DNA of 15,466 nt from Bacteroidales bacterium UBA3663 (GTDB lineage: Bacteria > Bacteroidota > Bacteroidia > Bacteroidales > UBA3663): the NCBI GenBank assembly GCA_002373755.1, contig DFJU01000106.1, forward strand, positions 30,301-45,766, in the 5' to 3' direction. Below are positions 1 through 15,144 of the stretch, piece by piece (positions within the stretch are counted from its first letter, which is position 1; each line of letters starts with the position of its first letter). The notes beneath the pieces were generated by a model. The model made no database searches, was not told the DNA's origin, and worked only from the letters and a program-made list of their open reading frames with translations. Position numbers and translations under genes: made by a program.

Positions 1-1067
1 TAGAACGTGTAATCCATGATGGTATTGACATGTGCTGTAACAGGGTCTTTTCCACGTAATTGGCGGATGGTACGCTTAACACATTCTGTGTCGAAGCGAA
101 GATAGTAATTCATTAGATATGACTGAATGGCGTCACCGCTCCATGTCCAGCGGTCGCGCTTGATGCCGTCCATCATGAACTCGCGCGTAGTGAGGTCCAT
201 CGTGTAGGCCGCAACTTGCCAGATGCGGTTCACCTCGTCGTCCGAGCATTCGAAACGGCCGCTACGCGACTCCTCCTGCGGCAGGTATTCGTAGAGCATC
301 GTCACATCGGCCACATCGCCCTCCACAAGCACGTAGCGGAAGGCTTTCGAGCCGGAGATGGTCAGGGTGCCGTCGGCCACAACGCGGTCGAGCGTCTCGC
401 AGTGCTCCTTGTCCAATGCCTCGGCCTCGCTTTCGCCGTAGTAGATGGCGACCTCGCCGTGCGCGCCGTGCAGGGTCACGTAGCCCATCGTTTCGCGTCC
501 GAAGTCCCACAGGGAGGCATTGGCCGCAATCTTTTTATGGCCGATGGCATTGCGCGGCTCGGTGCGGAGCAGCTGGAACTGGCTGGGCAGCACCTGCGGG
601 TCGTCGCATCCGGGCCACATGCCGGGCGCGAGGTAGATGCCCGAGCCGTGGGCGACGCCGTTTTCGTCAATCCAGATCTTGTCTTCGCAGGTCACGAGCC
701 ACGAGCCGTCGGTGTTGGCTGGGCTATTGGCCAATGTGCCTTCAATCCAGAGCGATGGCGGCGTGCTGACGCTGTTGACCTTGATGTTCAGCTTGTGGCG
801 GCCTGCGGGCAGCGTCCACGTGTCGGGTTGGCCGAACTGGAGCTTTCCATCGACCATAAAATTATAGATGCCCTCCACGTGGATGTGAAGGGTATCTGAC
901 TCGGGAAGTGTAAATTCCTTTGAGAATTCGACGGTCTGCCAGTGGCTGTCCTGCTTCCAGAAGGGCGGGAACATCGCGCCACGTTCAGTGCGCCGGTTAT
1001 TAAACTGGTTCCCCAGCCAAACCTCGCGGTCGCCGGGGAACCATATCCATTGCGGTTTATTCGCCAT
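1..1067 (-). CDS. GH78-type alpha-L-rhamnosidase, cytoplasmic (C-terminal part beyond the window)
   Basis: Likely removes terminal alpha-L-rhamnose from an imported glycoside. 355 codons are present and the frame is open to the left edge, where the rest of the (alpha/alpha)6 barrel should lie. Residues 1-180 are a beta-rich N-terminal region. Residues 188-196 read DFGRETMGY, a pattern seen in GH78 proteins just before the catalytic domain. Residues 300-312 read DGIKRDRWTWSGD, which aligns with the family motif DCPxRExxGWxGD and is followed by a YLMNYYLRFD stretch typical of a Bacteroidetes subgroup. The start ATG (1067-1065) lies inside the end of the MFS gene, an 11-base overlap, so the two are probably translationally coupled. 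There is no signal peptide: the protein begins MANKPQWIWF, so it should act in the cytoplasm. The position of the usual acid Glu in the motif holds Asp305. The family call is firm; the exact substrate is unknown. Confidence 0.88.
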   Translation of the reverse strand, partial: MANKPQWIWFPGDREVWLGNQFNNRRTERGAMFPPFWKQDSHWQTVEFSKEFTLPESDTLHIHVEGIYNFMVDGKLQFGQPDTWTLPAGRHKLNIKVNSVSTPPSLWIEGTLANSPANTDGSWLVTCEDKIWIDENGVAHGSGIYLAPGMWPGCDDPQVLPSQFQLLRTEPRNAIGHKKIAANASLWDFGRETMGYVTLHGAHGEVAIYYGESEAEALDKEHCETLDRVVADGTLTISGSKAFRYVLVEGDVADVTMLYEYLPQEESRSGRFECSDDEVNRIWQVAAYTMDLTTREFMMDGIKRDRWTWSGDAIQSYLMNYYLRFDTECVKRTIRQLRGKDPVTAHVNTIMDYTF

Positions 1068-2415
1068 AGTGTTCTTTGGTGTGATCTTCGCCGTAGCGTT
1101 CGTCGGAAATCTGGCTCATTGTCTTGCCACGGGTCTCAGGAGCGTAGTGGATGCCGATGGCTGCCGAAATCACTAAGAGCGCAAGCATAATCCATGAGCC
1201 GTAGCTGATGGCCTTCTCGCCGCCGATTGAGTTGAAGTATTCGGAGAAGGTGCTGGCACCGAGTGCTGAAAGCAGACGCACCATGCAGACCATTACGCCG
1301 ACTGCTGCTGCACGGTAGCGGAACGGGAACAGCTCGACGCTCCACAGGGCGAAGAAGAGCTGCACCGAAATGCCGGCCTGAACGCCCCACAGGATGGTGA
1401 CGAAGATAAGGCCGCCCATGCTGTCGATGCCGACCAGTCCGACCATAAGCCATGCCAGGATGCCGACATCAATGAAGCCGGCCATCAGCTTGCGGTGGTT
1501 GAAGCGGTCGATGAAGAAGGCTCCGACGAAGGTGATGACGCAGGTCAGGAACCACATGTCGGCCAACGTGCGGGTAGTGATCAGCATCGAGAGGTTACCG
1601 ACAGTCTGATAGATGTGGTTCTGGAAGAAGCCCATGGTCGACGCGACAAGATTCCACGACAGGTACATGCTGGTGAGGATGATGACCGTCTGCAAATACG
1701 GTGCCTTGAAGAGCTTCTTGAACGAGAAGAACAGCGGCTGCGTCTTGTCGATGGATGCTTTGTTGGCCAGCCATTCGTTCGACGGCTCCAGACGGCGCAT
1801 GAAGAACCATGCAATGACGGCGTCGATGTAGAGCAGTGCGAACACGATGCGCGACGTATAGACGTTCACTGCATTCGTGTGGTTGGAACGTACGCCAAAC
1901 CAGTCGGCCACCTCAACGACCCACGAGAAGAGTGTGCCGCCAGGCGAGAACAGGAAGGCAAAGAGTAGCACAAAGGCAGGGCCAAGACCCCAAGCCACCT
2001 GACTGAATGCGATGTTGCGGCCACGGGTGTTAGGCTCTGAACATTCGCAGATGTAGGTCCACGATGCAGGGATGCTCACGCCGGCTGCTACGCCAGTGAT
2101 GACGAAGCCAAGCAGCAACTGTGCGAAGGTGCTGGCTGTCATGGTGAGCAGGATGCCTGCCATGTAGGTCAACAGGTTGTAGGTGAACACTTTGCTGCGG
2201 CCATAACGGTCGGCAAAGAAACCACCCAAGAATGCGCCGATGGCAGCACCTGTGCCGTTGGCCGAAAGGAAGTTCAGCCAGCCAAGGTCGCCGCCGCTCA
2301 GGCCAAGATACTTTTCCCACAGCTCAAGGCCACTGCCTCCGGCCACGATGGCACCTGCAGCCAGAAAGTTGCAGGTGGAGGCAGTCAGTGTTTTTTGTAA
2401 TGATGATTGTGACAT
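1057..2415 (-). CDS. MFS transporter, sugar porter type
   Basis: A 452-residue inner-membrane permease with about 12 hydrophobic segments, the usual size for the major facilitator superfamily. The loop between segments 2 and 3 carries ADRYGRSK (residues 68-75), the family's D-R-x-G-R signature. The C-terminal tail carries PETRGK (about 426-431), the classic sugar-porter ending. It probably imports the sugar or small glycoside used by this operon, driven by an ion gradient. Its last codons overlap the start of the rhamnosidase gene, so the imported compound may be a rhamnoside that is split inside the cell. The gap of 146 bases to the isomerase holds a hairpin (2502-2557) but no recognisable promoter. 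Substrate specificity cannot be read from the sequence. Confidence 0.9.
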   Translation of the reverse strand: MSQSSLQKTLTASTCNFLAAGAIVAGGSGLELWEKYLGLSGGDLGWLNFLSANGTGAAIGAFLGGFFADRYGRSKVFTYNLLTYMAGILLTMTASTFAQLLLGFVITGVAAGVSIPASWTYICECSEPNTRGRNIAFSQVAWGLGPAFVLLFAFLFSPGGTLFSWVVEVADWFGVRSNHTNAVNVYTSRIVFALLYIDAVIAWFFMRRLEPSNEWLANKASIDKTQPLFFSFKKLFKAPYLQTVIILTSMYLSWNLVASTMGFFQNHIYQTVGNLSMLITTRTLADMWFLTCVITFVGAFFIDRFNHRKLMAGFIDVGILAWLMVGLVGIDSMGGLIFVTILWGVQAGISVQLFFALWSVELFPFRYRAAAVGVMVCMVRLLSALGASTFSEYFNSIGGEKAISYGSWIMLALLVISAAIGIHYAPETRGKTMSQISDERYGEDHTKEHYGE

Positions 2416-2501
2416 AGTGTAATTTGGTTTTGTTCCCCGCCGTCAGTCAACAACGGGAAGAGGTTAATGATATTATATAAGATAAAATTCTGGTTGATTG
2501 C

Positions 2502-2557
2502 AGGGAAGTAGGGAAAGAAGAACTAAGAGTTGCGTCCTCCTTTCTCCTGACTTCCCT
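2502..2557 (-). other. Imperfect hairpin between isomerase and transporter genes
   Basis: The arms AGGGAAGT (2502-2509) and ACTTCCCT (2550-2557) pair perfectly, and an inner GAAAG/CTTTC pair lengthens the stem. It begins five bases after the isomerase stop. The T-tract expected of an intrinsic terminator is weak, so it may instead stabilise the upstream message or cause partial termination. Confidence 0.4.
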
Positions 2558-2561
2558 TCAT

Positions 2562-3992
2562 TTATTCGTGTACGTACAGATCCCAGCCCAGATAGTTCAC
2601 AAGGGCATCCTGCACGATTTCGACCACATCGGTACGCACGAGGGCGACGTGATGCTCGAAGCCGTTGCGGCAGATGTACTTCATCAGCTTCTGGAGGTTA
2701 TCGACCTTGGTCACGGCGATGCAGCCGTCCATGCCGTATGGGTCATTGGTCAGCTCGCCCTTGCCCAGATATGCCTTGATGCAGCCTTTGGTGTCGTCGG
2801 TCGAGATGCGGAAGAAGGTGAACGGGCCTTCAGCCACCTTGGCATACACGGCGCCGAAGGTGCGTACCTTGCCGAGGGTGCGACCCAGCACGCCGAGCGG
2901 ACCGAGTTTGAGGTCGTCGGTGCCTACGAAGCCCTTCGGGAAGTTGCCGCAGTGGGTGCAGACGCACTTGTTGCGGTCCTGGGCAAAGTTGTTGTTCCAG
3001 TCGGCAAGGGCGGCAGGCTGCTGTGTGGCCAATGTCAGCGCGTACATCGACACGGCACCGGCCAGGTCGGTCTCGCAGGCAGCCGGAATCAGCTTATCCG
3101 ACAACATCGACATCGTGACACAGGCGGCGCAGCCATAGTTCTGCTCCAGCGAGTCCCAGCATTGGATAGCGACGGCATCGACCTTCTCGCTCTCCATCCA
3201 GTTCTCGACAGCTACGCCGAATTTTGCCTGCACGCGCAGCTTGTCCTGATACTGCTCAGGCACCTTGGCGTAGGCCGGAATCGACTTCAGCTTCTCGATG
3301 AACTTCGGGTCGTCGTCGGCCACCTTCTCGGCATTGTAGAGGATTTCGCTCAAATCGACCGGAACGACGGTGATGCCGCTGCGTTGCAGCAGTTTCTCGC
3401 TTGCGCGGCAGGTGTTGAAGCCCAGCGGACGTGTGCCGATCTGGCCGATGCGGCAGTGGCGCAGGCCGTTCACTACGCGGCAGGTTGCGGCAAATTTGAC
3501 GATGTCGGCCTTGACCAACGGGTCGTAGATGTCGTAGGTGTGCAATGTGGTGTCGCTGAACGGGATGCCGTACTGATACAGGTTGTTGCACACCGAAATC
3601 TTGCCGCAGAAGGCGTCGCGGCGGTGGTCCAGATCGACCTTGTCGTTATAGTCGTCGTAGGCCTGAACCAGCACCGGCACGTTGAGGTTGGCCTCGCTGA
3701 TGGCGTTGATGATGCCGATTTCGTAGCCGAAGTTCGGCAGGGCGACGATGATGCCGTCGATGCGTTCGCGGTTCTCCTTGAACTGGGCAGCAACCTTCAG
3801 ACCGTCCTCGCGCGTCTCAATCGAGCTCGAACCGGTCACGGTAGCATCCTCCGGCAGGATGACATAGTCGTAGCCGCACTCGTCCATGATGCGGAGCAAC
3901 TCCTTGCGTACGTCCTTGGCCAACTCGCTGTTGAAGTAGGCTCGCGTACCTATAATTATGCCGAAACACGGCTTCTTGTTCACAATCTTCAT
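2562..3992 (-). CDS. L-fucose/L-arabinose isomerase-like enzyme, candidate D-apiose isomerase
   Basis: Probably an aldose-ketose isomerase that makes the ketose substrate of the kinase just upstream. The start chosen is MKIVNKKPCF at 3992, giving 476 residues. An earlier in-frame ATG at 4034 would add 14 residues encoded partly by an intergenic repeat. Residues 8-170 look like the Rossmann-type N-terminal and central domains. Residues 277-310 carry CWDSLEQNYG and ACETDLAGA, where Glu283 and Asp309 are plausible metal ligands. His447 and His448 in FEHHVAL near the C-terminus could complete the site. The length is close to that of AraA and shorter than classical FucI. In gene context (FGGY kinase plus split transketolase) the best fit is D-apiose isomerase, but L-fucose, L-arabinose or another pentose remains possible. 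No signal peptide; cytoplasmic. Confidence 0.85.
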   Translation of the reverse strand: MKIVNKKPCFGIIIGTRAYFNSELAKDVRKELLRIMDECGYDYVILPEDATVTGSSSIETREDGLKVAAQFKENRERIDGIIVALPNFGYEIGIINAISEANLNVPVLVQAYDDYNDKVDLDHRRDAFCGKISVCNNLYQYGIPFSDTTLHTYDIYDPLVKADIVKFAATCRVVNGLRHCRIGQIGTRPLGFNTCRASEKLLQRSGITVVPVDLSEILYNAEKVADDDPKFIEKLKSIPAYAKVPEQYQDKLRVQAKFGVAVENWMESEKVDAVAIQCWDSLEQNYGCAACVTMSMLSDKLIPAACETDLAGAVSMYALTLATQQPAALADWNNNFAQDRNKCVCTHCGNFPKGFVGTDDLKLGPLGVLGRTLGKVRTFGAVYAKVAEGPFTFFRISTDDTKGCIKAYLGKGELTNDPYGMDGCIAVTKVDNLQKLMKYICRNGFEHHVALVRTDVVEIVQDALVNYLGWDLYVHE

Positions 3993-4011
3993 AAATTCTT
4001 TGTTTTTAAGG

Positions 4012-4042
4012 ACCCACCCCCGCCCCCTCCACAAGGGAGGGG
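4012..4042. repeat. GC-rich hairpin repeat upstream of the isomerase gene
   Basis: A C-rich stretch leads into a perfect 7-bp stem, CCCCTCC (4024-4030) and GGAGGGG (4036-4042), with the loop ACAAG. Similar C-rich boxes ending in a CCCTCC/GGAGGG hairpin are, as I recall, common between genes in Prevotella. It lies in the kinase-isomerase gap, about 20 bases before the isomerase start, and has no T-tract. Confidence 0.55.
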
Positions 4043-4081
4043 AGTGAAGTCCGTTGTTAACTCTTATTTCTTATTTCATAA

Positions 4082-5569
4082 TTATTTCAGCACTTGTGCG
4101 ACCGCTTGATGCCATTCATCCACGTAGCGCTGCATTTTCGAGCTGTCGGCCAATGGCTTTTTCGTCCAACGCGAGCGGCGCAGGCGGGCGACGTCGGCCA
4201 ACGAGGCATAGACACCTCTTGCCAGCACGTTCATCACGACGGCGCCCATGGCCGATGCCTCTTCCACGTCGCTGCAATTGACCGGCACGCCCAGCACGTC
4301 GGCCTGGAACTGCATCAAGGTGGCATTCTTCGTCGGACCGCCATCGACGCGCAGTTCCCTGAGGGCGACACCGGCCTGTTCGGTCATGGCCTTGACGAGG
4401 TCGTTCACCTGATAGGCGATGCTTTCCAGTGCGGCGCGCAGGATGTGGGCTCGCGTAGTGGCCAATGACATTCCCACGATGGCAGCGCGTGCGTCGGCAT
4501 TCCACCACGGTGCGCCCAGTCCGGCAAAGGCAGGCACAAAATAGACGCCGCCGTTGTCTTCGACGCTCTGTGCGGCCGGTTCGACCTCGGCCGGCGACGA
4601 GATGAGCTGCATCTGCTCCTGCAACCACTTCAGCGTGGCGCCGGTGCAGTGGATGTTGCCCTCAAATGCGTAGAAGCACTTTCCGCCGGCAGCGAAGGCC
4701 ACGCTTGTGACCAGTCCGCCGGGAGCCTTGCTGAATTCCTGGCCGATGTTCACCATCACGCTCGAGCCCGTTCCGTAGGTGGCCTTGCCCAGTCCGGCCT
4801 CGAAGCACATCTGTCCGGCCAATGCACCGTGGCTGTCGCCCAGCACACCCGCGATTTTTATCGGGTTGGCCAATGTGCCTTCCACGTCGGTTTCGCCGAA
4901 CACGCTGTCGCATGGCAGGATTTCTGGCATCATCGACGATGGAATCGTGAACATCCGAAGTAGGTCTTCGTCCCACTTCAATGTGCGTATGTTCATCAGC
5001 AATGTGCGCGATGCGTTGGTCACGTCGGTCACGTGGCATTGGCCGCGGGTCAGTTTCCAGATGAGCCACGAGTCGATGGTTCCCATCAGCAGTTCGCCGC
5101 GATTTGCAGCGTCGCGTGCGCCCTCCACGTTGTCGAGCAGCCATTTTGCGCCACTTGCCGAGAAGTATGGGTCGATGATGAGTCCGCTGCGTTCCTGTAC
5201 CATTGCACTGTGGCCGGCGGCTTTCAGCTCGTTGCAGAAGTCGGCTCCGCGCAGGCATTGCCAGACGACGGCATTGGCTATCGGCCGCCCCGTCAGCCTG
5301 TTCCACACGACGACGGTTTCGCGCTGGTTGGTGATGGCGAGGCTCAGGTTTTGAGGTTTTGAGGTTTTGAGGTTTTTAGGTTCATCGGCCAACAACTCAC
5401 GGATCCCTTCGACCACGTTGCGATAGATTTCTTCGGCATCGTGCTCAACCCAGCCTGGCTGCGGATAATATTGTTTGTGCGCCTTGTTGATACGCTTGAC
5501 CATCTCCAACTGTTCGTTGAAGAGCATCACTTTCGTTCCGCTGGTACTTTGGTCTATGGCGAGAATCAT
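4082..5569 (-). CDS. FGGY-family kinase, glycerol-kinase-like, candidate apulose kinase
   Basis: A cytoplasmic ATP-dependent sugar kinase of 495 residues, full length for the family. It is colinear with E. coli GlpK: AIDQSTSGTK near the N-terminus, NQRETVVVW at 81-89, DPYFSA at 133-138, GTIDSWLIWKLT at 163-174, GDSHGAL at 244-250 with catalytic Asp245, YGTGSS at 265-270 and DGGPTKN near residue 413. Arg83, Glu84, Tyr135 and Asp245, which contact glycerol in GlpK, are kept. Gln246 and Phe270 of GlpK are both Ser here, suggesting a larger pocket and a substrate other than glycerol. Beside an isomerase and a split transketolase, phosphorylation of a ketose such as apulose is the best guess. An 8-bp tandem repeat encodes residues 63-76, a loop before NQRET. 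The gap to the transketolase genes holds a dispersed repeat. Confidence 0.88.
   Translation of the reverse strand: MILAIDQSTSGTKVMLFNEQLEMVKRINKAHKQYYPQPGWVEHDAEEIYRNVVEGIRELLADEPKNLKTSKPQNLSLAITNQRETVVVWNRLTGRPIANAVVWQCLRGADFCNELKAAGHSAMVQERSGLIIDPYFSASGAKWLLDNVEGARDAANRGELLMGTIDSWLIWKLTRGQCHVTDVTNASRTLLMNIRTLKWDEDLLRMFTIPSSMMPEILPCDSVFGETDVEGTLANPIKIAGVLGDSHGALAGQMCFEAGLGKATYGTGSSVMVNIGQEFSKAPGGLVTSVAFAAGGKCFYAFEGNIHCTGATLKWLQEQMQLISSPAEVEPAAQSVEDNGGVYFVPAFAGLGAPWWNADARAAIVGMSLATTRAHILRAALESIAYQVNDLVKAMTEQAGVALRELRVDGGPTKNATLMQFQADVLGVPVNCSDVEEASAMGAVVMNVLARGVYASLADVARLRRSRWTKKPLADSSKMQRYVDEWHQAVAQVLK
5345..5382. repeat. 8-bp tandem repeat (GAGGTTTT) inside the kinase coding region
   Basis: Three exact GAGGTTTT units occupy 5353-5376. 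A near copy (CAGGTTTT) precedes them at 5345-5352 and a partial copy (TTAGGTT) follows to 5382. It encodes residues 63-76 of the kinase, in a surface loop about four residues longer than in GlpK. Eight is not a multiple of three, so gain or loss of one unit would shift the reading frame. Confidence 0.8.
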
Positions 5570-5640
5570 ATAGCGATTTGCGATAATTACAAATTACGAA
5601 TTACAAATTACCTTCCCATTCGGATAATCTCCTCCCCTCG

Positions 5641-5706
5641 GGGTCCTCGCAGCGAAAAGAACGATTGATAATCGTTCAGCGAGAAGACGAGCTTTAGCGA
5701 GGGGCA
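5641..5706. repeat. Dispersed intergenic palindromic element, copy A
   Basis: This copy matches 15055-15122 in inverted orientation at about nine in ten positions. Its core, 5660-5676, is a hairpin with 7-bp arms AACGATT and AATCGTT around GAT. It lies in the 153-base gap between the transketolase C-terminal gene and the kinase gene. Confidence 0.8.
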
Positions 5707-5722
5707 GGAGGGAGGGGGTCGC

Positions 5723-6649
5723 TCACTTTTTCACAAACTCTTTTGCGTTCTTGACGATGCCCTCTGCGTCCAATCCGTAGTGGTGGAAAATCTCCTTGTT
5801 GGTGCCGTGGATGGCATCTTCGTCGGGGATGCCGAGGATGCGCACGGGGACGGGATTCTCCGACAGGATTTCGCACACCATTGCGCCCAGTCCGCCGAAT
5901 TGCGAGTGCTCCTCGACGGTGATGATGCGGCCGGTCTCGCGGGCAGCCTTGATGACGGCCTCCTTGTCGCACGGCTTGATCCATGCCATGTCGAGCACGC
6001 GGGCCGAGATGCCCTCATTGGCCAACATGATGCCGGCCTGCTTGGCGTGGTATGTCGTCTCGCCCGTTGCGATGATGGTGAGGTCCTTGCCGTCCATCAG
6101 CATGTTAGCCTTGCCCACCTCAAACGTGAAGTTGTCGTCCTCATAGACATCGGGCACAGCAGCACGGCCGACGCGGACGTAGCATGCCTGCGGATAATCG
6201 ACCAGCAGTTTGACCAGCTTGGCCGTCTGTCGCTCATCGCATGGCAGGCAGATGCTCATGCCCGGAAAACAGCGTAGCACGGCCATGTCGTGCAGCGAGT
6301 GGTGGGTTGTGCCCAATGCGCCATAGGCCACACCGCCGCTCACGCCCAAAATCGTCACCGGATTGCGGCTGTAGGCCAGATCGACCTTGACCTGCTCCAG
6401 CGAACGTGCCACGTAGAAGCACGCCGGGCCGCACACGAATGTCTTCTTGCCCGAATGTGCCAATCCGGCCGAGATGCCGACGGCATCCTGTTCGGCGATG
6501 CCGCATTCCACAAATTGTTCTGGCAGTTCCTTTGCAAAATCGCCCAATGTGACCGAGCCGCGTGCGTCGGTGGTGACTGCAACAATATCTTTGTCCTTTT
6601 TGGCTAACCCAAGGAGTGTATCGGTAAAACTCTTTCTACAAGCTTTCAT
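5723..6649 (-). CDS. Transketolase, C-terminal subunit (candidate AptB-like)
   Basis: One half of a two-subunit thiamine-diphosphate transketolase, carrying the pyrimidine-binding and C-terminal domains; 308 residues, normal for such halves. ECGIAEQDAVG (48-58) holds Glu53, the residue that activates the cofactor's aminopyrimidine ring. GVAYGALGTTHHSLHD (106-121) is the usual active-site loop. VEEHSQFGGLG (245-255) starts the C-terminal domain. Its start is 15 bases after the stop of the N-terminal half, so the two are co-transcribed and should form one enzyme. With the adjacent isomerase and kinase it may cleave apulose 4-phosphate instead of serving the general pentose pathway. Deoxyxylulose-phosphate synthase is less likely because that enzyme is a single long chain. 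Cytoplasmic. Confidence 0.88.
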   Translation of the reverse strand: MKACRKSFTDTLLGLAKKDKDIVAVTTDARGSVTLGDFAKELPEQFVECGIAEQDAVGISAGLAHSGKKTFVCGPACFYVARSLEQVKVDLAYSRNPVTILGVSGGVAYGALGTTHHSLHDMAVLRCFPGMSICLPCDERQTAKLVKLLVDYPQACYVRVGRAAVPDVYEDDNFTFEVGKANMLMDGKDLTIIATGETTYHAKQAGIMLANEGISARVLDMAWIKPCDKEAVIKAARETGRIITVEEHSQFGGLGAMVCEILSENPVPVRILGIPDEDAIHGTNKEIFHHYGLDAEGIVKNAKEFVKK

Positions 6650-6664
6650 TTCTGTGCGTTTTTT

Positions 6665-7501
6665 TTAGATGTTCTTTTCGAGCGATGCGATTCGCGCGCT
6701 GATTTCGGCGATTGCCTGCTGGTATTGCTCTTCGTTCGGCATCCCGTGGTGCCAGCTGGCCACGTTCTCCATGTAGCTCACGCCGAATCCCTTGGTCGTG
6801 TTGCTCACCAGCAGGTGCGGCTTCCGGTTCGCGTAGTCGATTGAGGCGAAGGTGTCGAGGATGGACTGCATGTCGTCGCCGTTCATCTCCTTGACGTCCC
6901 AGCCGAAGGCCGACCAGCGTTCGCGGATGCTGTCGAGCGCCATCACATCTTCGGTGTTGCCCGAGATCTGAAGGTGGTTGCGGTCGATGATTGCCACCAG
7001 ATTGTCGAGCTTGTACTGGTGACCGGCCATTGCAGCCTCGTAGATCGAGCCTTCGCCCTGTTCACCGTCGCCCATCATCACGAAGGTCTTGTAGCTCCTT
7101 TTGTCCATTTTTGCGGCCAATGCCATTCCGACACCGATGCTGAGTCCGTGGCCGAGTGCGCCCGAGCACACCTCGATGCCATTCACGTCGATGGTCGGGT
7201 GTCCGCTCAGCACGCTGCCGAACTTGCCCAGCGTGTCGGTGAGTTCCGGCTTGATGAAGCCGCGGCTTTCAAGCACGGTGTAGAGCGATTCCACACAATG
7301 ACCTTTGCTCAGGATGAAGCGGTCGCGGTCGGGGTCGTTCACCTGCGCCGGACTGATGTTCATCACTTCACTGTAGAGAGCTGTCATCACGTTGAGGCAT
7401 GAGAGGTCGCCGCCGATGTGTCCGGCTTTGGCGTTATAGACCACCTCAACGAGTCTTTTGCGATTCTTTTCGCTTTGAAGCGTTAGTTCTTTTGCGTTCA
7501 T
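6665..7501 (-). CDS. Transketolase, N-terminal subunit (candidate AptA-like)
   Basis: The pyrophosphate-binding half of the split transketolase, 278 residues. Visible motifs are AGHIGG (26-31), SKGHC (65-69), SGHP (99-102), GALGHGLS (114-121) and the thiamine-diphosphate/Mg motif that begins at GDGEQGEGS (144-152) and ends at Asn175 in IIDRN. ASWHHGMP (248-255) supplies the substrate-binding His seen in transketolases. The start ATG at 7501 follows a 114-base gap after the beta-helix gene. That gap has no recognisable promoter, so the operon promoter at 9467-9498 probably drives this gene as well. Splitting of transketolase into two genes is common in bacteria and archaea; use in apiose breakdown is inferred from the neighbours. 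Confidence 0.88.
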   Translation of the reverse strand: MNAKELTLQSEKNRKRLVEVVYNAKAGHIGGDLSCLNVMTALYSEVMNISPAQVNDPDRDRFILSKGHCVESLYTVLESRGFIKPELTDTLGKFGSVLSGHPTIDVNGIEVCSGALGHGLSIGVGMALAAKMDKRSYKTFVMMGDGEQGEGSIYEAAMAGHQYKLDNLVAIIDRNHLQISGNTEDVMALDSIRERWSAFGWDVKEMNGDDMQSILDTFASIDYANRKPHLLVSNTTKGFGVSYMENVASWHHGMPNEEQYQQAIAEISARIASLEKNI

Positions 7502-7542
7502 TTTTTATCGTTTAACAATTCTTTGGGTCTTTTTTTTTACGA

Positions 7543-7577
7543 CGGAAATACACGGAACATCGGAAAATCACGGAAAA
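7543..7577. repeat. Degenerate direct repeats (CGGAAA type) in the intergenic gap
   Basis: Four CGGAA-led units begin at 7543, 7553, 7561 and 7571 (TTCCG on the coding strand), spaced 10, 8 and 10 bases. They lie in the 114-base gap between the beta-helix and transketolase genes. No promoter or T-tract terminator was found there. Confidence 0.55.
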
Positions 7578-7615
7578 GCTTGTCGCTACGTGATTTTTTT
7601 GTTGGCCGATGGTAT

Positions 7616-9436
7616 TCACTTCTTCACGGGAATGACGCGGGGCTTGTTTTCCTCCCGCAGCATCAGGTCATTGGCCTTCGGCTTGTTCTCGGGCGTGAGT
7701 ATCACTGTCTTTACGTTGTTCTCCCACACATTGCACGGGCCGTTGGCGTTTTGCAGGAACTTGTCCGACGGGCAATGGTTGTCGTGTACCCAGATGTTCG
7801 ACGAGCCTTCGTCGGTGTAGAGCCAGAACCAGTGGTTCGGGTCGTGCGCATAACTCGGCTTGGCGATGTCGCTTACCGTGTTGCCCGTGATTTCCGAACC
7901 CGGCTGGCTGCCCAGCGTGTAGATTCCGGCGCAGTCGTACATGTGCAGGGCGAACTGCGAAATCGTGTTGTCCGCTACGCGGTTGTCGTGCATGCAGCCT
8001 GTGTTGGCGTTCCATCCCCAGCCGAGCGAGATGGCGCTGTAGGGCACTCGTTCGATGCGGTTGCCCGCGATTTCCGTCTCGGCCACATATCCGGCGGCGA
8101 TGGCCAGTGTGCCCCAGTCTTCGGTGCCGGTGTCGTGAATCTCATTGGCCGCAATCCGGAGTCCGCTCACGACCTCGCGGCGGTCGGTCGGGTTGTAGGC
8201 GATGTGGGTCTCCAGTCCGGCGGGCGAGAACGAACCTGCCACGATGCCGTTGCCTGCGATGTCGGCCAATGTGCATCCCTCGATAGAGCCGCCCCGGGTG
8301 CCCCACTCGTAGTCGATGCCGCTGCTGCCCAGTTGCGTGAAGGTGCAGCCACGGAAGGCAATGTCCTTGCCGCCGCGCACTCTTACGGCCGATGCGGGAC
8401 GTGCCAGCCAGCCTTGGTTGTCGAGGTCGTGGTTGCCCTTGCGCTGCATCATCGGGTCGATGCGGTATGCCTCGGTGAGCATCATGCCGGCCTGTAGCGG
8501 CACGTGTCCCTCCAGTGAGGGACGAATCCACGTAGCGTGTGCGAACTCGACATTTTCGATGCGGATGTCATCGGCCATGTTGTCCAATGTGCCTTCGACG
8601 GCCAACAGCGTCTCGACGGCGGGGACAATGGCATCGGCCACAACCTCGCCCGGCATCGGCCAATAATAGACCTTCTGCGCCTTCAGGTCCAGATACCACT
8701 CGCCCGGCTGGTCGAGCAGTGCCTTGTGGTTCGTGATGTAGAAGGGCGATGCGTTCCAGCCCTCGGGTCGGTCGTGGCAGAGCGGTGACGGCCACGGGTG
8801 CGAGAACTGCAGGTCGCTTTCGGGGTTGTGGAAGCGGATGGCCATCGAGTCGCCCGTCTGGGTGATGCTCCTGATGCGCAATGTGGAGACGCACCACATC
8901 TCGTGCAGCACCATTTCGGCGTGTCCGACGCCCTCTTTGGCCAATCTTTTCAACGTAGCGTTGGCCGGAACGTAGAGGACTTTTGCGTCGCGATCCTGGC
9001 TCAGGACGCGTTCCATGTCGTCCCACTCGGCGACGTCTTTGGCTCGCACGGCCTTCCTGCCGTTCACGTAGAGCTGGCGGAATTCGAGGGGGCGGCCGTG
9101 AAATTCAGGCACATCGGCCACCATGAGCTTGCCTTCCTTGCGCCATTGGCCAAGACGGATGCCGCCTGAGATTCGGCTGAGGCATCGGCCGTCGCTGCCG
9201 CGTTCGCCCACGATGCGCAGGTGGCTGTCTTCGGGGCGGAGCACAAGCGTCTGTTCCACGGTGTAGGTGCCGGGAGCCAGATGAATAGTAATCGGAGTGG
9301 AATCGCCCTTGCGGTGCATTTCGCGCGCCTCAACGACGGCATCGTAGAGTGGACGGTTGGCCGTTGTGTAGATGTCGGAGGCGGAAAGAAAGCCGAAGCA
9401 CGTCGCGAAAAGAGAGAGCGTGGCGAGTATGCGCAT
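7616..9436 (-). CDS. Exported right-handed beta-helix protein, probable glycoside hydrolase (GH141-like)
   Basis: First gene of the operon, 606 residues from ATG 9436. That start is chosen over the in-frame ATG at 9523 because it begins a signal peptide (MRILATLSLF to about LSA, residue 19) and lies 30 bases after a promoter -7 box; the longer form would cross that promoter. There is no lipobox, so the product should be periplasmic or secreted. Residues about 25-80 resemble the entry region of pectate-lyase-like folds (HLAPGTYTV). GEWYLD at 245-250 and KVYYWP at 255-260 recall beta-helix hydrolases annotated in Bacteroidetes. Residues 290-575 carry repeating N-x-I/V turns of a parallel beta-helix, with DCAGIYTLGSQPG (501-513) and YTDEGSSN (540-547). 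GH141 (fucosidase/xylanase) is my best family guess and GH120 an alternative. It probably trims a plant glycan before uptake. Confidence 0.82.
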   Translation of the reverse strand: MRILATLSLFATCFGFLSASDIYTTANRPLYDAVVEAREMHRKGDSTPITIHLAPGTYTVEQTLVLRPEDSHLRIVGERGSDGRCLSRISGGIRLGQWRKEGKLMVADVPEFHGRPLEFRQLYVNGRKAVRAKDVAEWDDMERVLSQDRDAKVLYVPANATLKRLAKEGVGHAEMVLHEMWCVSTLRIRSITQTGDSMAIRFHNPESDLQFSHPWPSPLCHDRPEGWNASPFYITNHKALLDQPGEWYLDLKAQKVYYWPMPGEVVADAIVPAVETLLAVEGTLDNMADDIRIENVEFAHATWIRPSLEGHVPLQAGMMLTEAYRIDPMMQRKGNHDLDNQGWLARPASAVRVRGGKDIAFRGCTFTQLGSSGIDYEWGTRGGSIEGCTLADIAGNGIVAGSFSPAGLETHIAYNPTDRREVVSGLRIAANEIHDTGTEDWGTLAIAAGYVAETEIAGNRIERVPYSAISLGWGWNANTGCMHDNRVADNTISQFALHMYDCAGIYTLGSQPGSEITGNTVSDIAKPSYAHDPNHWFWLYTDEGSSNIWVHDNHCPSDKFLQNANGPCNVWENNVKTVILTPENKPKANDLMLREENKPRVIPVKK

Positions 9437-9466
9437 GGACAAGATTTCGTTTAAAATACACGAGCG

Positions 9467-9498
9467 CAAAGATATTGCATTTTGCCTACCTCTGCAAA
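9467..9498 (-). promoter_or_regulatory. Bacteroidetes-type promoter of the sugar operon
   Basis: Reading the minus strand, a -33 TTTG (9498-9495) and a -7 TATCTTTG (9474-9467) are 20 bases apart, matching the TTTG-N19-21-TAnnTTTG consensus. The box ends 30 bases before the beta-helix start. No other consensus promoter was seen on this strand down to the left edge. Confidence 0.82.
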
Positions 9499-9544: not shown

Positions 9545-9575
9545 TTTGTCGGCTGAATATTTTTCGTTAATTTTG
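9545..9575 (+). promoter_or_regulatory. Bacteroidetes-type promoter of the queuosine-precursor transporter gene
   Basis: TTTG (9545-9548), 19 bases, then TAATTTTG (9568-9575) match the consensus. It is back to back with the sugar-operon promoter, with their outer boxes 46 bases apart. Transcription would begin near 9582 and leave a leader of about 110 bases before ATG 9694, long enough for a control element, but no known riboswitch could be recognised. Confidence 0.82.
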
Positions 9576-9693: not shown

Positions 9694-10377
9694 ATGAAAG
9701 AGACCGAAAAGGTGTCAGCGATCTACATGGTCCTGGCGGTTGTGTTCTGCGTGTGTCTGGTTTCCAGCAATATTTTTGTGGCCAAGGTGACCACTTTCGG
9801 CTTTACTGGAGGCCTGCTCGTTTTCCCGATTTCCTACATCGTCGGCGACGTTGCGACCGAGGTCTATGGCTTCCGTGCCGTGCGCCGGCTCATCTGGTTG
9901 GGCTTTGCGATGAATTTCTTCGTCGTGGCGATGGGCGCGTTGGTGACGATGTTGCCCGGCAACGCTGAACTGCCCTCATCGGCCGCAATCGACACGATTT
10001 TCCACATTGGCGGCGGTATGGCGCTTATTGTATGCTGCGCCTCGATGCTTTCGTTCGTTTTGGGTTCGATGGCTAACGCTTGGGTGATGCACCGTATGCA
10101 CCAGATTGACGGCGAACGCCGTTTCTCGCTGCGCGCCATTGTCTCGACGATTGCCGGCGAAAGTGTCGATTCGCTGATTTTCTTCCCGATTGCCTTCTGT
10201 ATGCCGCTGATTTCTGGCGAGATGCCTGTCGAAGCGTTGTTTAAGATGATGGCATTGCAGGTTTCGTTGAAGACAATCTATGAAGTCATCGCGCTTCCGG
10301 TCACAATTCGCGTAGTGCGCTACGTTGAAGGGAAAGAGGCATCGGTCATGGTCGGAACTACGCGACTTGCGGCCTGA
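9694..10377 (+). CDS. yhhQ: Queuosine-precursor transporter, YhhQ/DUF165 family
   Basis: A 227-residue inner-membrane protein with about six hydrophobic segments, normal size for the family. The N-terminal part carries SSNIFVAKVTTF (24-35) and FPISYIVGDVATEVYG (44-59), the hallmark of YhhQ proteins. The family imports queuosine precursors (preQ0/preQ1) used to modify tRNA wobble bases at GUN anticodons. The start ATG follows an A-rich leader without Shine-Dalgarno sequence, usual for Bacteroidetes. It has its own promoter, divergent from the sugar operon, so a functional link to sugar use is unlikely. The following DUF3109 gene lies 100 bases downstream on the same strand and may share the transcript. 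Confidence 0.92.
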   Translation: MKETEKVSAIYMVLAVVFCVCLVSSNIFVAKVTTFGFTGGLLVFPISYIVGDVATEVYGFRAVRRLIWLGFAMNFFVVAMGALVTMLPGNAELPSSAAIDTIFHIGGGMALIVCCASMLSFVLGSMANAWVMHRMHQIDGERRFSLRAIVSTIAGESVDSLIFFPIAFCMPLISGEMPVEALFKMMALQVSLKTIYEVIALPVTIRVVRYVEGKEASVMVGTTRLAA

Positions 10378-11699: not shown

Positions 11700-12374
11700 T
11701 CAGAGTAGGACATCCGGCACGACCTGACCGTCAAACAGCTTGATGATGCGTTGTGCATGGCTGGCATCGCGTTCGGAGTGCGTCACCATCACGATGGTTG
11801 TTCCCTCCTGGTTCAGTTCGGTGAGCAGCTGCATGACCTCCAGTCCGTTCTTCGAGTCGAGGTTGCCTGTCGGTTCGTCGGCCAGGATGAGCTTGGGGTT
11901 CATCACCACGGCGCGGGCGATGGCGACACGTTGCTGCTGGCCGCCGGAGAGCTGTTGCGGGAAGTGGTGGGCGCGATGCGAGATGGACATGCGGCGCAGC
12001 ACCTCCTCGACACGCTGGCGACGCTCCTGCTTGGGGATGCCGAGGTAGGTGAGGGGCAGTTCGACGTTTTCCTCGACGTTCAGTTCGTCGATGAGGTTGA
12101 AGCTCTGGAAGATGAAACCGATCTGCCCCTTGCGCACCTTGGTGCGTTGGCTCTCCTTCAGTTTGCCAACCTCCTTGCCGTCGAGCCGGTAGATGCCGTC
12201 GGTGGGGTTGTCGAGCAGGCCGAGGATGTTCAGCAGCGTCGATTTTCCACAGCCGCTTGGACCCATGATGGCCACGAATTCGCCGTCGTTCACTTCGAGC
12301 GAAATGTTGTTCAATGCTACGGTCTCCACCTCCTCTGTGCGGAACACCTTTTGAATGTTTTCAAGCTTGATCAT
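11700..12374 (-). CDS. ABC transporter ATP-binding protein, MacB/LolD-like
   Basis: A 224-residue cytoplasmic ATPase, normal length for the family. GPSGCGKST (38-46) is Walker A, FQSFNL (89-94) the Q-loop, LSGGQQQRVAIARA (142-155) the ABC signature, LILADEPTGNLD (162-173) Walker B plus D-loop, and the H-loop His is in VTHSE (197-201). The MGPSGCGKSTLLN and DEPTGNLD forms are typical of MacB/LolD ATPases that power FtsX-like permeases by mechanotransmission. It is the last gene of an operon running adaptor, permease, ATPase, so the complex probably exports a compound or extracts a lipid-linked substrate across the envelope. The 153-base gap from the permease holds an inverted repeat but no consensus promoter. 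Confidence 0.93.
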   Translation of the reverse strand: MIKLENIQKVFRTEEVETVALNNISLEVNDGEFVAIMGPSGCGKSTLLNILGLLDNPTDGIYRLDGKEVGKLKESQRTKVRKGQIGFIFQSFNLIDELNVEENVELPLTYLGIPKQERRQRVEEVLRRMSISHRAHHFPQQLSGGQQQRVAIARAVVMNPKLILADEPTGNLDSKNGLEVMQLLTELNQEGTTIVMVTHSERDASHAQRIIKLFDGQVVPDVLL

Positions 12375-12414
12375 AGTGATATTTTTTTTAGGAATTATTC
12401 AAATTTTAAGGTTC

Positions 12415-12516
12415 TCAAGAATTGGAGAATTGTGGAAAATTGCAAAGCGAAGTTCTTGATTTTCAACGATTCGGAATGTCAGGAAATTGAAATTCTCTCA
12501 ATTCTAAAATTCTTGA
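12415..12516. repeat. Inverted repeat between ABC permease and ATPase genes
   Basis: The 18-base arms TCAAGAATTGGAGAATTG (12415-12432) and CAATTCTAAAATTCTTGA (12499-12516) pair with two mismatches around a 66-base loop. The word TTCTTGAT recurs several times in and beside the gap (12375-12527). The region is AT-rich; it could stabilise the transcript or be a small dispersed repeat. Confidence 0.55.
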
Positions 12517-12527
12517 TGAATCTTGAT

Positions 12528-14897
12528 TTATTCGTTCTTGATGCTGTTGACGGGATTCTCATCGGCCACATGCCAGCTCTGGAGCACGACGGTGGTGAGG
12601 GTGACGGCGGCGACGACGAGCAGTGTCATTGGGAAGAGCCACCAGTGGATTGGCGTACGTTCGGCAAACGACTGGAGCCATTCGTGTCCGATGTACCACG
12701 CCAACGGAGCCGCGATGACGAAGCTGACGGAGAGCGGCCACAGATAGCGGCGGCACAGCATCGTGAGGATTTCGGCCGTGGAACTGCCCATCACTTTGCG
12801 GATGCCGATTTCCTTGCGGCGGTATTCGGTCTCGAACATCGTCATGCAGAAAACGCCAATCAGGGTGATTATCATGCAAATGACCGAGAAGACAAGCACT
12901 TGCATGGTGAAGCGAAATTCCCCTTGGTAGGTATTTTCAAGCTCTTGGTCGAGGAACTTGACTTCGATTCCGCTCTGGGCACCGAGGCCGACAAGGACGT
13001 TCCTTATCTTCTGGCGCATCTCGATTTTGTCGATGCCGGCTGCTACGCGGACATTCAGGGTTCCCAGTCCATAAAAGTCTTTATCCTTGTCGCCCGTGAT
13101 GAAAAATGCCATCGGCGCATTGTTGTTGTCGGCACGAGTTGACTTGTATCGGACGTTTTTGCACACGCCAATCACGGGCAAAAAGTCTTTCAGAAGCGGC
13201 TTGTCCATCTCAACCCAGTCCCACTGCTTGCGTGCCGCCTCGTTGATGATGAGCACACCCTCGTCGTGCTCGTTGAAGTCACGACCCTCAATCACCTCAA
13301 TGCCCATAGTGCGCAGATAGTGCCAATCAACAGGTATACAGGTGAAGTTTATATGATGATCGCTGTCGCCACGCCCCCAACCCATGTAGCTGTCATTGGT
13401 GCCTATCTTGAACTGCGAGAAACTTACCTCCTCGACACCGGTGAGCTGCATCAGTTCGGAACGCATCGCATCGCGTTTGTCGGTCATCTCCCACACGAAG
13501 GCTTGAAGCACCTCGTCCTTGCTGTAGCCGTAGTCGGAATGGAAGATGTAATGAACCTGCTGCTGGAGGATGCCCACATAGACCATCATGATCGATGTGA
13601 TGATGAATTGCAGGCAGAGCAGCGCGGTGCGCAGTTTACGTCCCTTCGGGGTGAGGCCGAAAGAGCCTTTCAGCACCAAGGCCGGCTGGAACGATGTGAC
13701 ATAATAGGCTGGATACATTCCGGCGACGATGCCCACAATGACCGATACGGTGGCCAATGCCAACAGCAGCAGCAGATTGCCACCCAACGAGATGTCGCCC
13801 GAAAGAAGTCCATGCACGAGGGGCGACTGCGAGAGCAGATAGACGGCCGCCACAGCAAGCACGAACGCGGAGATGGATGTCACTACTGCCTCGCCGACAA
13901 AGCCCATGCGCAACGCTGACGTGCTGCAGCCAAGCACCATGCGCGTGTTCACGCTCTTTATGCGCATCGGGCTTTCGGCCAACGTGAAGTTCAGGAAGTT
14001 GATGGTGGCGATGATGATGACCAACAGGCACGCCAATTGCAGAATCCAATCCACATTGCGGTTGCCCTTGTCCAAATTTGAGTCGAGACCTGAGAACCAC
14101 GTTTCGGTGATGGGTGTGAGACGGACTGGCAACTCTTCTCCTTTTTTTTCAGCATCTTCCCAGTCCCGTTTGCCAAGCGACCGTAATTTCTCATAAATCT
14201 TCAGGGTAATGGTCTTGCCGAGGTTTTCGCCAAACTCGTCGGCATCCACATTTTCCCTCAACTTCAGGTAGCACGTATAGTTCCAGTTGTTGAGGTTGTC
14301 CTTGTTCTCGTCGCCAAAGTTCTTGTAGATGCAATTCCTCATCGAACAGTTTGCGGGCATATCCGTAAAGACGCCAATCACCGGGATGCTGTCATTCACA
14401 CCGCGCATACATCGGCCAGCCACCTGCGTCGAGCCGAAATAATTCATCGCGATTGAGGCCGGAATGACCAAGCCTTTCGTGTCGCCCTCCGTCCAGTTCA
14501 ATCGGCCGTCAATCAGTCGCGTAGCAAGCAACGAGATGGCATCGTTGCTCACGCCACAGGTCGGGAAATAGATGTCTGTCCCGTTGCTGCTGAATCGTTC
14601 GTTGCCCAACCAGCACTGAAGCAGCGCCATACCCTCGACCTGCGGCAGCGTGGCCAGTTCTTCGGCAATCAGACGGGAGCTTTGCGCTATCCATCGCCCT
14701 TCCTCCATAATGTCGCGGAACTCGACGCGATAGACGCGCTCGTAATCCTTCACGCCCTTGTTGTACGAGTGGTTATAGACGACCTGCGTCATGAGCAGGT
14801 AGAAAGTCGCGAAGGCCACCGTAAGCCCCACAAGGTTGAGCACCGTCGCCGTCTTGAAGCGGCGTGCCATGTAGATCATGTTTCTCAGTATGTTCAT
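12528..14897 (-). CDS. ABC transporter permease, FtsX/MacB-like
   Basis: A 789-residue inner-membrane permease of the large type common in Bacteroidetes, with two FtsX modules. The start is ATG 14897 (MNILRNMIYMARRFKTATVL), because an earlier in-frame ATG at 14942 adds 15 hydrophilic residues that lack the conserved opening. A transmembrane segment lies near residues 17-40, then a periplasmic domain of about 230 residues, a block of three membrane segments, the motifs YPAYYVTSFQPALVLKGSF and TPKGRKLRTALLCLQF that lead into the second module, a second periplasmic domain, and a last three-segment block containing ETEYRRKEIGIRKVMGSS. It ends ADENPVNSIKNE, typical of the family. It pairs with the ATPase downstream and the adaptor upstream. 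The exported substrate is unknown; antimicrobials, peptides and lipoproteins are known for relatives. Confidence 0.9.
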   Translation of the reverse strand: MNILRNMIYMARRFKTATVLNLVGLTVAFATFYLLMTQVVYNHSYNKGVKDYERVYRVEFRDIMEEGRWIAQSSRLIAEELATLPQVEGMALLQCWLGNERFSSNGTDIYFPTCGVSNDAISLLATRLIDGRLNWTEGDTKGLVIPASIAMNYFGSTQVAGRCMRGVNDSIPVIGVFTDMPANCSMRNCIYKNFGDENKDNLNNWNYTCYLKLRENVDADEFGENLGKTITLKIYEKLRSLGKRDWEDAEKKGEELPVRLTPITETWFSGLDSNLDKGNRNVDWILQLACLLVIIIATINFLNFTLAESPMRIKSVNTRMVLGCSTSALRMGFVGEAVVTSISAFVLAVAAVYLLSQSPLVHGLLSGDISLGGNLLLLLALATVSVIVGIVAGMYPAYYVTSFQPALVLKGSFGLTPKGRKLRTALLCLQFIITSIMMVYVGILQQQVHYIFHSDYGYSKDEVLQAFVWEMTDKRDAMRSELMQLTGVEEVSFSQFKIGTNDSYMGWGRGDSDHHINFTCIPVDWHYLRTMGIEVIEGRDFNEHDEGVLIINEAARKQWDWVEMDKPLLKDFLPVIGVCKNVRYKSTRADNNNAPMAFFITGDKDKDFYGLGTLNVRVAAGIDKIEMRQKIRNVLVGLGAQSGIEVKFLDQELENTYQGEFRFTMQVLVFSVICMIITLIGVFCMTMFETEYRRKEIGIRKVMGSSTAEILTMLCRRYLWPLSVSFVIAAPLAWYIGHEWLQSFAERTPIHWWLFPMTLLVVAAVTLTTVVLQSWHVADENPVNSIKNE

Positions 14898-14962
14898 AGT
14901 TGTTAAATGATTGAAAAGAATTCTATGTTTCAGGTTGTGCAAGTTTTAAGTTCGCTTGCTCA

Positions 14963-14990
14963 CCTTGCCCCTCGGCTAAAGCCTCGTCTT
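14963..14990. repeat. Fragment of the dispersed intergenic element, copy C
   Basis: These 28 bases match the left end of the element at 15053-15080, centred on CCCCTCGGCTAAAGCCTCGT. The palindromic core is missing. The DNA between it and copy B is AT-rich with short GAATTAAGAAATATGAG-like words. Confidence 0.75.
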
Positions 14991-15054
14991 AAGAGTTAGG
15001 AAATATGAATTAAGAAATATGAGTTGATAGCCGGAGCTATCGTCCCTTTCTCCT

Positions 15055-15122
15055 TGCCCCTCGGCTAAAGCCTCGTCTTCTCGCTGAACGATTATCAATC
15101 GTTCTGACCGCTGCGAGGACCC
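15055..15122. repeat. Dispersed intergenic palindromic element, copy B
   Basis: A 68-bp element matching 5641-5706 in inverted orientation. It differs mainly by two single-base insertions and a four-base block (GACC against TTTT). The core at 15087-15103 is the same 7-bp-arm hairpin. It sits between the adaptor and permease genes. Confidence 0.8.
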
Positions 15123-15144
15123 TTTCACTCCCCTTTTACTCCCT

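Follow-up and report, generated by a model that had tools for sequence, protein, structure and literature searches.

How might a bacterium gain access to the apiose of a plant cell wall polymer, and on which side of its inner membrane would the last glycosidic bond be cut? The question is raised by a group of hydrolase, transporter and sugar-catabolism genes in a 15,466-nucleotide stretch (the window) of contig DFJU01000106.1 of Bacteroidales bacterium UBA3663. Judging from gene content and homology, we think it probable that this operon salvages the rare branched sugar apiose from rhamnogalacturonan II (RG-II), a highly complex pectin, the disaccharide rhamnosyl-apiose (Rha-Api) being taken up whole and cleaved in the cytoplasm before the apiose is burned.

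The minus strand carries seven genes, in the order GH141, transketolase N-terminal half (TktN), transketolase C-terminal half (TktC), FGGY kinase, isomerase, MFS porter and GH78 (Table 1). From GH141 to the MFS gene the intergenic gaps measure 114, 15, 153, 89 and 146 nt, and the start of GH78 overlaps the end of the MFS gene by 11 nt. The operon runs on past the left edge of the window into a GH127 gene, base 1 of the window bordering a scaffold gap that lies within GH78. The GH141 gene probably starts at 9436 (ATG), although a longer ORF extends to 9523. Matches to TTTG-N18-22-TAnnTTTG, which we take to be the Bacteroidota promoter consensus, occur twice in the window versus 0.06 times expected from shuffled sequences, and the pattern upstream of the operon is more than chance. 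A divergent pattern, which lies before an unrelated transporter gene, marks the operon boundary. A weak terminator-like hairpin (5677-5659) lies between TktC and the kinase gene, terminator-like patterns being no commoner in the window than in shuffles, and we infer a single transcript for the seven genes. Gene calls, Pfam matches and the comparison of the promoter pattern with shuffles thus confirmed the original prediction of seven same-strand genes following one good promoter. Its statement that the window has neither a SusC/SusD pair nor a regulator also holds: inspection by eye revealed no such pair among the ORFs of the window or of positions 14000-32000 of contig C60, and no regulator among the window ORFs, the SusC- and SusD-like ORFs being far off, close to the contig start. 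The order and identities of its gene list stood as well, with the beta-helix protein refined to GH141-like, but the kinase name "ApsK" did not, as the gene is called aplK in PMC13001218.

Table 1. Features of the operon and its promoter region in the window.
Feature	Position	Strand	Basis
Leaderless GH78 alpha-L-rhamnosidase, BT1001-like, N-terminal part, continues beyond the window	1..1067	-	Pfam; PDB match; overlap with MFS
MFS sugar porter, predicted inner-membrane rhamnosyl-apiose importer	1057..2415	-	Pfam; in several genomes beside a leaderless GH78; paralogues in L-rhamnose operons
L-arabinose/L-fucose-isomerase-fold protein, predicted D-apiose isomerase (ApsI-like)	2562..3992	-	Pfam Fucose_iso_C; gene context of relatives; AlphaFold2 model
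FGGY kinase, GlpK-like sequence, predicted D-apulose kinase (AplK-like)	4082..5569	-	Pfam/NCBIfam; Ser/Ser at GlpK Q246/F270 positions
Transketolase C-terminal half (AptB-like)	5723..6649	-	Pfam; 36% identity to E. coli SE15 AptB
Transketolase N-terminal half (AptA-like)	6665..7501	-	Pfam; 43% identity to E. coli SE15 AptA
GH141 beta-helix hydrolase, predicted to be exported; BT1002-like (RG-II alpha-L-fucosidase)	7616..9436	-	Pfam GH141_M, 191 bits; PDB match
Bacteroidota-type promoter (TTTG - 20 nt - TATCTTTG) upstream of the operon/GH141	9467..9498	-	Pattern match
Divergent Bacteroidota-type promoter pattern, before queuosine-precursor transporter gene (9694-10377)	9545..9575	+	Pattern match

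The proposal of an intracellular rhamnosidase was supported in silico. The GH78 protein has no signal peptide, and its closest relative in the PDB is BT1001 of Bacteroides thetaiotaomicron (3CIH; 773 bits for the full-length orthologue from locus L003, 413 bits for the window fragment), which is reported to split the RG-II disaccharide Rha-Api. Within a sample of 237 genomes of the order, GH78 was without a leader in 4/4 isomerase-positive genomes and exported in 7/7 isomerase-negative ones; all 30 sequences read from other isomerase genomes were leaderless too. In the tree the leaderless proteins form one clade with a single loss of the leader, and the correlation of localisation with the isomerase therefore counts as a single event.

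The MFS protein is the candidate inner-membrane porter. Its paralogues belong to L-rhamnose operons, including one in the same genome, which carries L-rhamnose genes; the porter may therefore carry rhamnose, and we can only infer its substrate. Of 42 isomerase genomes in which this GH78 occurs, only 7 have the MFS gene adjoining it. MFS matches were present in 38 of those 42 genomes (the GH78 leader was read in 34 of the 42), in 0/7 genomes with an exported GH78 and in 0/13 isomerase genomes without GH78, after G264, G278 and G279, which belong to the last class, had been left out. We had considered the presence of the MFS gene as a marker of leaderless GH78, hence of a dedicated porter, and dropped it: among the 30 loci returned, 23 had rhamnose-operon neighbors, 6 had GH78 adjacent and 1 had neither (9 further matches came without a locus). 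In many genomes with leaderless GH78 the rhamnose-operon paralogue is thus the only one seen.

These data are also what favors entry of apiose and rhamnose as free sugars, whereby the cassette would burn apiose, the MFS protein would import either apiose or L-rhamnose, and small rhamnosides that enter otherwise would be the substrates of the cytoplasmic GH78. The close paralogues in L-rhamnose operons and the 23/30 loci with rhamnose-operon neighbors agree with it. However, the rhamnose-operon paralogue that the genome already holds (46% identity to the operon MFS over the matched part) would make the operon copy redundant, the MFS gene runs into the start of the rhamnosidase gene, and the MFS-GH78 pair recurs in another family (G208). 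We thus regard this explanation as unlikely and prefer import of intact Rha-Api.

The sugar itself is suggested by the remaining four genes, which had been proposed to encode the transketolase route for D-apiose and whose two-gene transketolase, FGGY kinase and isomerase all lie in one cluster at the window locus. The isomerase had no match in the PDB by single sequence or by profile, nor did a profile comparison with E. coli FucI place it; it was placed by fold comparison only, its AlphaFold2 model having the arabinose isomerase fold (TM 0.81). It belongs to a family present in apiose-type clusters: relatives with 44% identity occur in Enterobacterales clusters of the form SBP-DUF2291-RbsA-RbsC-regulator-TktN-TktC-isomerase-FGGY. 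These match the E. coli apiose cluster, save that in E. coli two SDR genes replace the isomerase gene; the DUF2291 proteins of locus L097 and E. coli are of the same Pfam family, yet without BLASTP similarity. E. coli carriers of the apiose cluster have been found to grow on apiose.

Among 80 isomerase loci, 44 have adjoining TktN, TktC, kinase and isomerase genes in this order. In 65 loci the sequence retrieved reaches over 4.5 kb upstream of the isomerase gene, and in 18 of these one or more of the other three genes are missing from it. The full operon, including MFS, GH78 and GH127, was seen in 2 of 80 other loci (L003 and L005), many contigs being short. The isomerase is also present in the cultured relatives Prevotella sp. 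tc2-28 and Xylanibacter caecicola. Beyond the Enterobacterales clusters, the set of isomerase, kinase and split transketolase is present in Bacillota and further Bacteroidota families. In two phyla, a PF13204 (GH140-type) apiosidase gene lies within the isomerase cluster, namely, in Listeria, Monoglobus and a Prevotella (L036); the Listeria and Monoglobus isomerases have only 30% and 28% identity, respectively, and that of Listeria scores under the Pfam cutoff. In the window's family, 12 of 15 genomes have the isomerase and the same 12 have GH140, and in the order sample the isomerase was found in 8 genomes, GH140 in 36 and both in 7 (Fisher, 8e-6); one genome (G118) has the isomerase and no GH140 at the cutoff. 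The Enterobacterales clusters, the in-cluster PF13204 genes and the co-occurrence of isomerase and GH140 support the assignment of these components to an apiose route.

The kinase is slightly closer to E. coli GlpK (42% identity) than to AplK (39-40%) and scores 4.5 and 104 bits above the cutoffs of the two NCBIfam GlpK models, neither of which E. coli AplK reaches. Two of its pocket residues are nevertheless as in apiose-cluster kinases. At positions Q246 and F270, which we take to be glycerol-pocket residues of GlpK, it has Ser twice, as do 52/52 cassette kinases compared and also the kinases of apiose clusters; Tyr is retained at GlpK position 135. A plain glycerol kinase, considered on account of the NCBIfam matches, was set aside because both substitutions are common to apiose-cluster kinases. 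The transketolase halves are homologous to AptA and AptB, but their identities (41/34%) are no better than those to a pair located beside dihydroxyacetone kinase genes (37/40%). In the transketolase tree, apiose-cluster pairs are poorly separated from others (deep nodes 38, 74 and 76), and "apulose" appeared in none of the names shown for the 120 transketolase relatives listed, most of which were without a name.

Could the isomerase, kinase and transketolase then serve another sugar, for instance via glycerol, dihydroxyacetone, fucose or another RG-II sugar? The GlpK models, the split transketolases found in other contexts, such as beside dihydroxyacetone kinase genes, and the poor separation of contexts in the tree would permit it. 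The altered GlpK pocket, the apiosidase genes inside clusters of two phyla, the co-occurrence with GH140 and the gene content shared with apiose clusters argue against it, making such a role improbable and D-apiose the preferred substrate.

The hydrolases point to the polymer. The nearest PDB entry of GH141 is 5mqp (BT_1002), with 648 bits over residues 30 to 577, the catalytic beta-helix, and that of GH127 is 5mqo, presumably BT1003; by eye, the N terminus of GH141 looks signal peptide-like, and the protein is thus predicted to be exported. Both an RG-II fragment and a flavonoid glycoside had been offered as substrates, and the former is favored because GH141 and GH127, too, match RG-II enzymes. 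A flavonoid or other secondary-metabolite glycoside with rhamnose and apiose would suit an operon without an RG-II backbone enzyme, GH78 enzymes often being active on flavonoid rhamnosides and apiose occurring in apiin, but it is very improbable given that GH141, GH78 and GH127 all find their nearest PDB matches among the RG-II enzymes of B. thetaiotaomicron or their entry and that a GH95 gene immediately precedes the isomerase gene in 6 of 80 loci.

For RG-II, the route would run as follows. Exported GH141, with GH127 encoded just outside the window, would strip the residues on the rhamnose of the side-chain Rha-Api unit, and an apiosidase of family GH140, whose gene lies elsewhere in the genome, would detach Rha-alpha-1,3-Api from the galacturonan backbone. 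This disaccharide would cross the inner membrane through the MFS porter and be split in the cytoplasm by the leaderless GH78. The freed rhamnose would enter the separate L-rhamnose operon of the genome, while the isomerase would turn apiose into apulose, which the FGGY kinase would phosphorylate and the two-part transketolase would then cleave. The products of this transketolase route are dihydroxyacetone phosphate and xylulose 5-phosphate.

More tentatively, a Bacteroidales branch might have shifted the last step of RG-II side-chain degradation to the cytoplasm, with an MFS protein of the rhamnose-porter family turned into a Rha-alpha-1,3-Api importer, a BT1001-type rhamnosidase that lost its signal peptide, and a single operon uniting both with the apiose pathway. 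The parts are of known kinds; their combination suggests an uncharacterized uptake route in a relative of rumen Bacteroidales. Among the open-licence papers listed in literature searches, we noticed none on the uptake and burning of released apiose by RG-II degraders. The locus puts forward a route that can be tested and one defined candidate inner-membrane transporter for a branched-sugar disaccharide, and it links hydrolases of RG-II with enzymes of catabolism in mostly uncultured relatives of rumen plant-cell-wall bacteria.

The operon resembles several known systems in part. It differs from SusC/SusD-type polysaccharide utilization loci in having no SusC/SusD pair. With the L-rhamnose operons of the same bacteria (RhaB, RhaA or a related isomerase, MFS and RhaD) it shares a paralogous porter, here paired with a cytoplasmic rhamnosidase in an operon without RhaA, RhaB and RhaD. 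The transketolase route for D-apiose (ApsI, AplK and AptA/AptB; MetaCyc PWY-8089, as cited in PMC13001218) is alike in its isomerase, GlpK-like FGGY kinase and two-gene transketolase, the four genes matching the Enterobacterales clusters; the window operon has no ABC transporter and contains the MFS porter, GH141, leaderless GH78 and GH127. The RG-II enzymes BT1001, BT1002 and BT1003 of B. thetaiotaomicron are matched by GH78, GH141 and GH127 (nearest PDB entries 3cih, 5mqp and 5mqo, respectively), but here GH78 carries no signal peptide, and the operon links the hydrolases with genes of sugar catabolism instead of a SusC/SusD locus.

The window (C60:30301-45766) comes from a draft genome that is 70% complete. 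Judged by the isomerase, its closest relatives in the named collection are metagenome genomes of Bacteroidales, some of them, several in number, with ruminant-stomach labels. The original prediction of seven same-strand genes behind one promoter agrees with the presence of a Bacteroidota-type promoter pattern upstream of them (table below). The window contains only two such patterns, where 0.06 would be expected, and the second one is divergent. Intergenic gaps in the operon range from 15 to 153 nt, the end of the porter gene overlaps the start of the GH78 gene by 11 nt, and the gap that precedes the kinase gene, after that for the transketolase C half, contains a weak hairpin.

Base 1 of the window adjoins a scaffold gap within the GH78 gene. 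As approximately 120 bases are duplicated on either side of this gap in diverged copies, the contigs to its left and right may come from different strains. In view of this possible mix, the location of the GH127 gene 3′ of that for GH78 is best backed by four relatives (L003, L004, L005, and L006), in which both genes are on a single contig. A large protein encoded farther downstream matches PADLOC helicase models, e.g., DpdF and GajB, probably merely because of shared helicase folds.

Coordinates of features in the window, in the locus at its left edge (L002), and in a related isomerase locus (L061)
Feature	Coordinates	Strand	Remarks
Bacteroidota-type promoter pattern	window 9467-9498	minus	Precedes seven minus-strand genes
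Scaffold join within the GH78 gene	L002:16299-16300		Two Ns
1630-aa protein	L002:7989-12881		Downstream of GH127; two helicase-like regions
ABC transporter ATPase, large permease-like protein, membrane-fusion-like fragment	window 11700-15466	minus	MacB-type exporter by eye; unrelated to the operon
Protein of a ~580-aa family	L061:4603-6345		Leader by eye; 5′ of transketolase cassette or kinase

Similarities of the hydrolases point to rhamnogalacturonan-II (RG-II). GH141 matched BT_1002 (5mqp) with 648 bits, and GH127 matched 5mqo, which we take to be BT1003, with 1051 bits. In chain B of RG-II, aceric acid is borne by the Rha of a rhamnosyl-apiose (Rha-Api) unit; in the structure described for chain A, Fuc is attached α-1,4 to the Rha of Rha-Api. 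BT1003 is described as an aceric acid hydrolase (PMC10850190, PMC5698469). GH141 and GH127 would thus each uncover the same Rha-Api unit. GH78 matched 3cih, identified as BT1001 (PMC4690510), with 413 bits for the window fragment and 773 bits for the full-length L003 orthologue; BT1001 is reported to split Rha-Api. With these matches, the proposal of an RG-II fragment as the substrate is supported, and the predicted RG-II assignment of the operon is a good one.

GH78 had been predicted to lack a signal peptide, and the N termini, judged from hydrophobicity and by eye, bear this out. BT1001-type GH78s are present in 11 of the 237 genomes sampled from the order. They are leaderless in all four isomerase-positive genomes and have a hydrophobic leader in all seven genomes without an isomerase at the cut-off, although one of the latter (L122) requires an internal start. 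Among 50 isomerase genomes, 38 contain this GH78; N termini were read for 30 of the 38, and all are leaderless (the start in L137 is ambiguous). In the tree, the leaderless GH78s form one clade inside the exported ones, so the correlation between leader absence and the isomerase reflects a single evolutionary event.

Relatives of the window porter are of two kinds, adjacent to GH78 or located in L-rhamnose operons, and the window's own genome has one of each. Its L-rhamnose operon (L185, G000:C26) has the order RhaB-RhaA-MFS-RhaD, the MFS gene being a paralogue of the window porter gene; RhaA scores above its model cut-off and RhaB slightly below, and the contig ends after the start of the RhaD-like gene. 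Of the 42 isomerase genomes that contain a BT1001-type GH78, 7 have an MFS gene next to it, and a porter of this kind also occurs in a genome of a different family (G208). Import of Rha-Api by this candidate porter fits the data, as a rhamnose-linked porter family is paired here with a cytoplasmic rhamnosidase, but the porter may instead carry free rhamnose. We found no description of a disaccharide-import route for Rha-Api in the open-licence papers covered by our searches; the proposed route is plausible.

A link with apiosidases was also observed. PF13204 (Apiosidase) genes are located directly behind the isomerase gene in L036, which is a short contig from Prevotella (326 bits), directly behind the kinase gene in a Monoglobus cluster (60 bits), and after a PTS gene in a Listeria cluster (313 bits). 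In the window's family, 12 of 15 genomes have the isomerase and the same 12 have GH140 (Fisher, 0.002); in the 237 genomes of the order, 8 have the isomerase, 36 GH140, and 7 both (Fisher, 8e-6), but both P values overstate independence because the drafts are incomplete and related. The strong GH140 match of the window's own genome is on a contig (C103) other than that of the operon, next to an ORF resembling the GH95 of other loci.

Other genes accompany the isomerase in some of the 80 isomerase loci that we kept from 137 confirmed relatives. In 10 (L015, L023, L025, L050, L056, L058, L061, L074, L077, and L078), the genes behind it encode a sodium-solute symporter and a DapA-family aldolase; nine of these 10 loci also have genes for a DUF1537-type kinase and a PdxA-like dehydrogenase, and six have one for an Fe-alcohol dehydrogenase. 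This set could split a 3-deoxy-ulosonic acid, e.g., RG-II DHA, into pyruvate and a four-carbon acid, later yielding triose phosphate. The ~580-aa family of L061 has relatives in L015, L050, L056, L058, L068, L077, L078, and L079; it resembles pectate lyase by eye, and Pfam revealed no catalytic domain, only a TSP3 repeat below the cut-off. Past the isomerase, L068 and L079 carry, on the opposite strand, genes for a Zn-alcohol dehydrogenase and an amidohydrolase with a weak fuconolactonase match, perhaps another deoxy-sugar pathway.

A PDB sequence search with the window isomerase gave no match. Its AlphaFold2 model (pLDDT 85, pTM 0.90) adopts the L-arabinose isomerase fold (TM 0.81) and is similar to a D-arabinose isomerase (0.77) and to L-fucose isomerases (0.72 to 0.74). 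Residues E307, D331, H347, and H448 are invariant among 17 sequences from three phyla, which agrees with the metal site of the superfamily. Two GlpK models of NCBIfam accept the window kinase, with scores 4.5 and 104 bits above their cut-offs; the same models give the best scores for E. coli AplK, below both cut-offs. At the equivalents of Q246 and F270, which we take to be glycerol-contact positions of E. coli GlpK, Ser/Ser is found in all 52 cassette kinases compared (of 55 cluster members, chosen by length). The apiose-cluster kinases of E. coli and Klebsiella share this pair, as do one Agrobacterium homologue and additional members from Enterobacterales, Listeria, and Monoglobus. Position 135 of the window kinase is Tyr, as in GlpK.

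The apiose pathway converts apulose 4-phosphate to dihydroxyacetone phosphate and xylulose 5-phosphate. Genes for the transketolase N and C halves, kinase, and isomerase occur in this order, with less than 400 nt between matches, in 44 of the 80 loci, and anywhere in the fetched stretch in 51; where the fetched stretch extends over 4.5 kb 5′ of the isomerase gene, which is so in 65 loci, at least one is absent from 18. In L097, from another Bacteroidota family, the cassette is followed by genes for a substrate-binding protein, a DUF2291 protein, and an ABC ATPase and permease. L099 and L100, also from other families, have a similar set, although L100 is truncated and retains no more of the C half than its end. 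The Pfam run covered all four L097 transporter proteins, two of L099, and the DUF2291 protein of L100, the others being assigned by eye. Four rumen-type loci (L008, L010, L040, and L066) likewise contain genes related to the ABC genes of E. coli. The binding proteins of L097 and E. coli are 34% identical, and BLASTP detected no similarity between their DUF2291 proteins.

The cassette and ABC genes of these Bacteroidota loci resemble the cluster of E. coli SE15, and growth on D-apiose is reported for strains with that cluster; in Escherichia, two putative oxidoreductases are described where apsI would stand (PMC13001218). In the Rahnella, Klebsiella, and Sodalis clusters, the isomerase place is held by relatives of the window isomerase with 44% identity, hence our designation of the latter as ApsI-like; those of Listeria (30%) and Monoglobus (28%) are distant. 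The original reading of the isomerase, kinase, and two-gene transketolase as an apiose route is supported; the predicted apiose core has strong comparative support as a pathway of an already known type.
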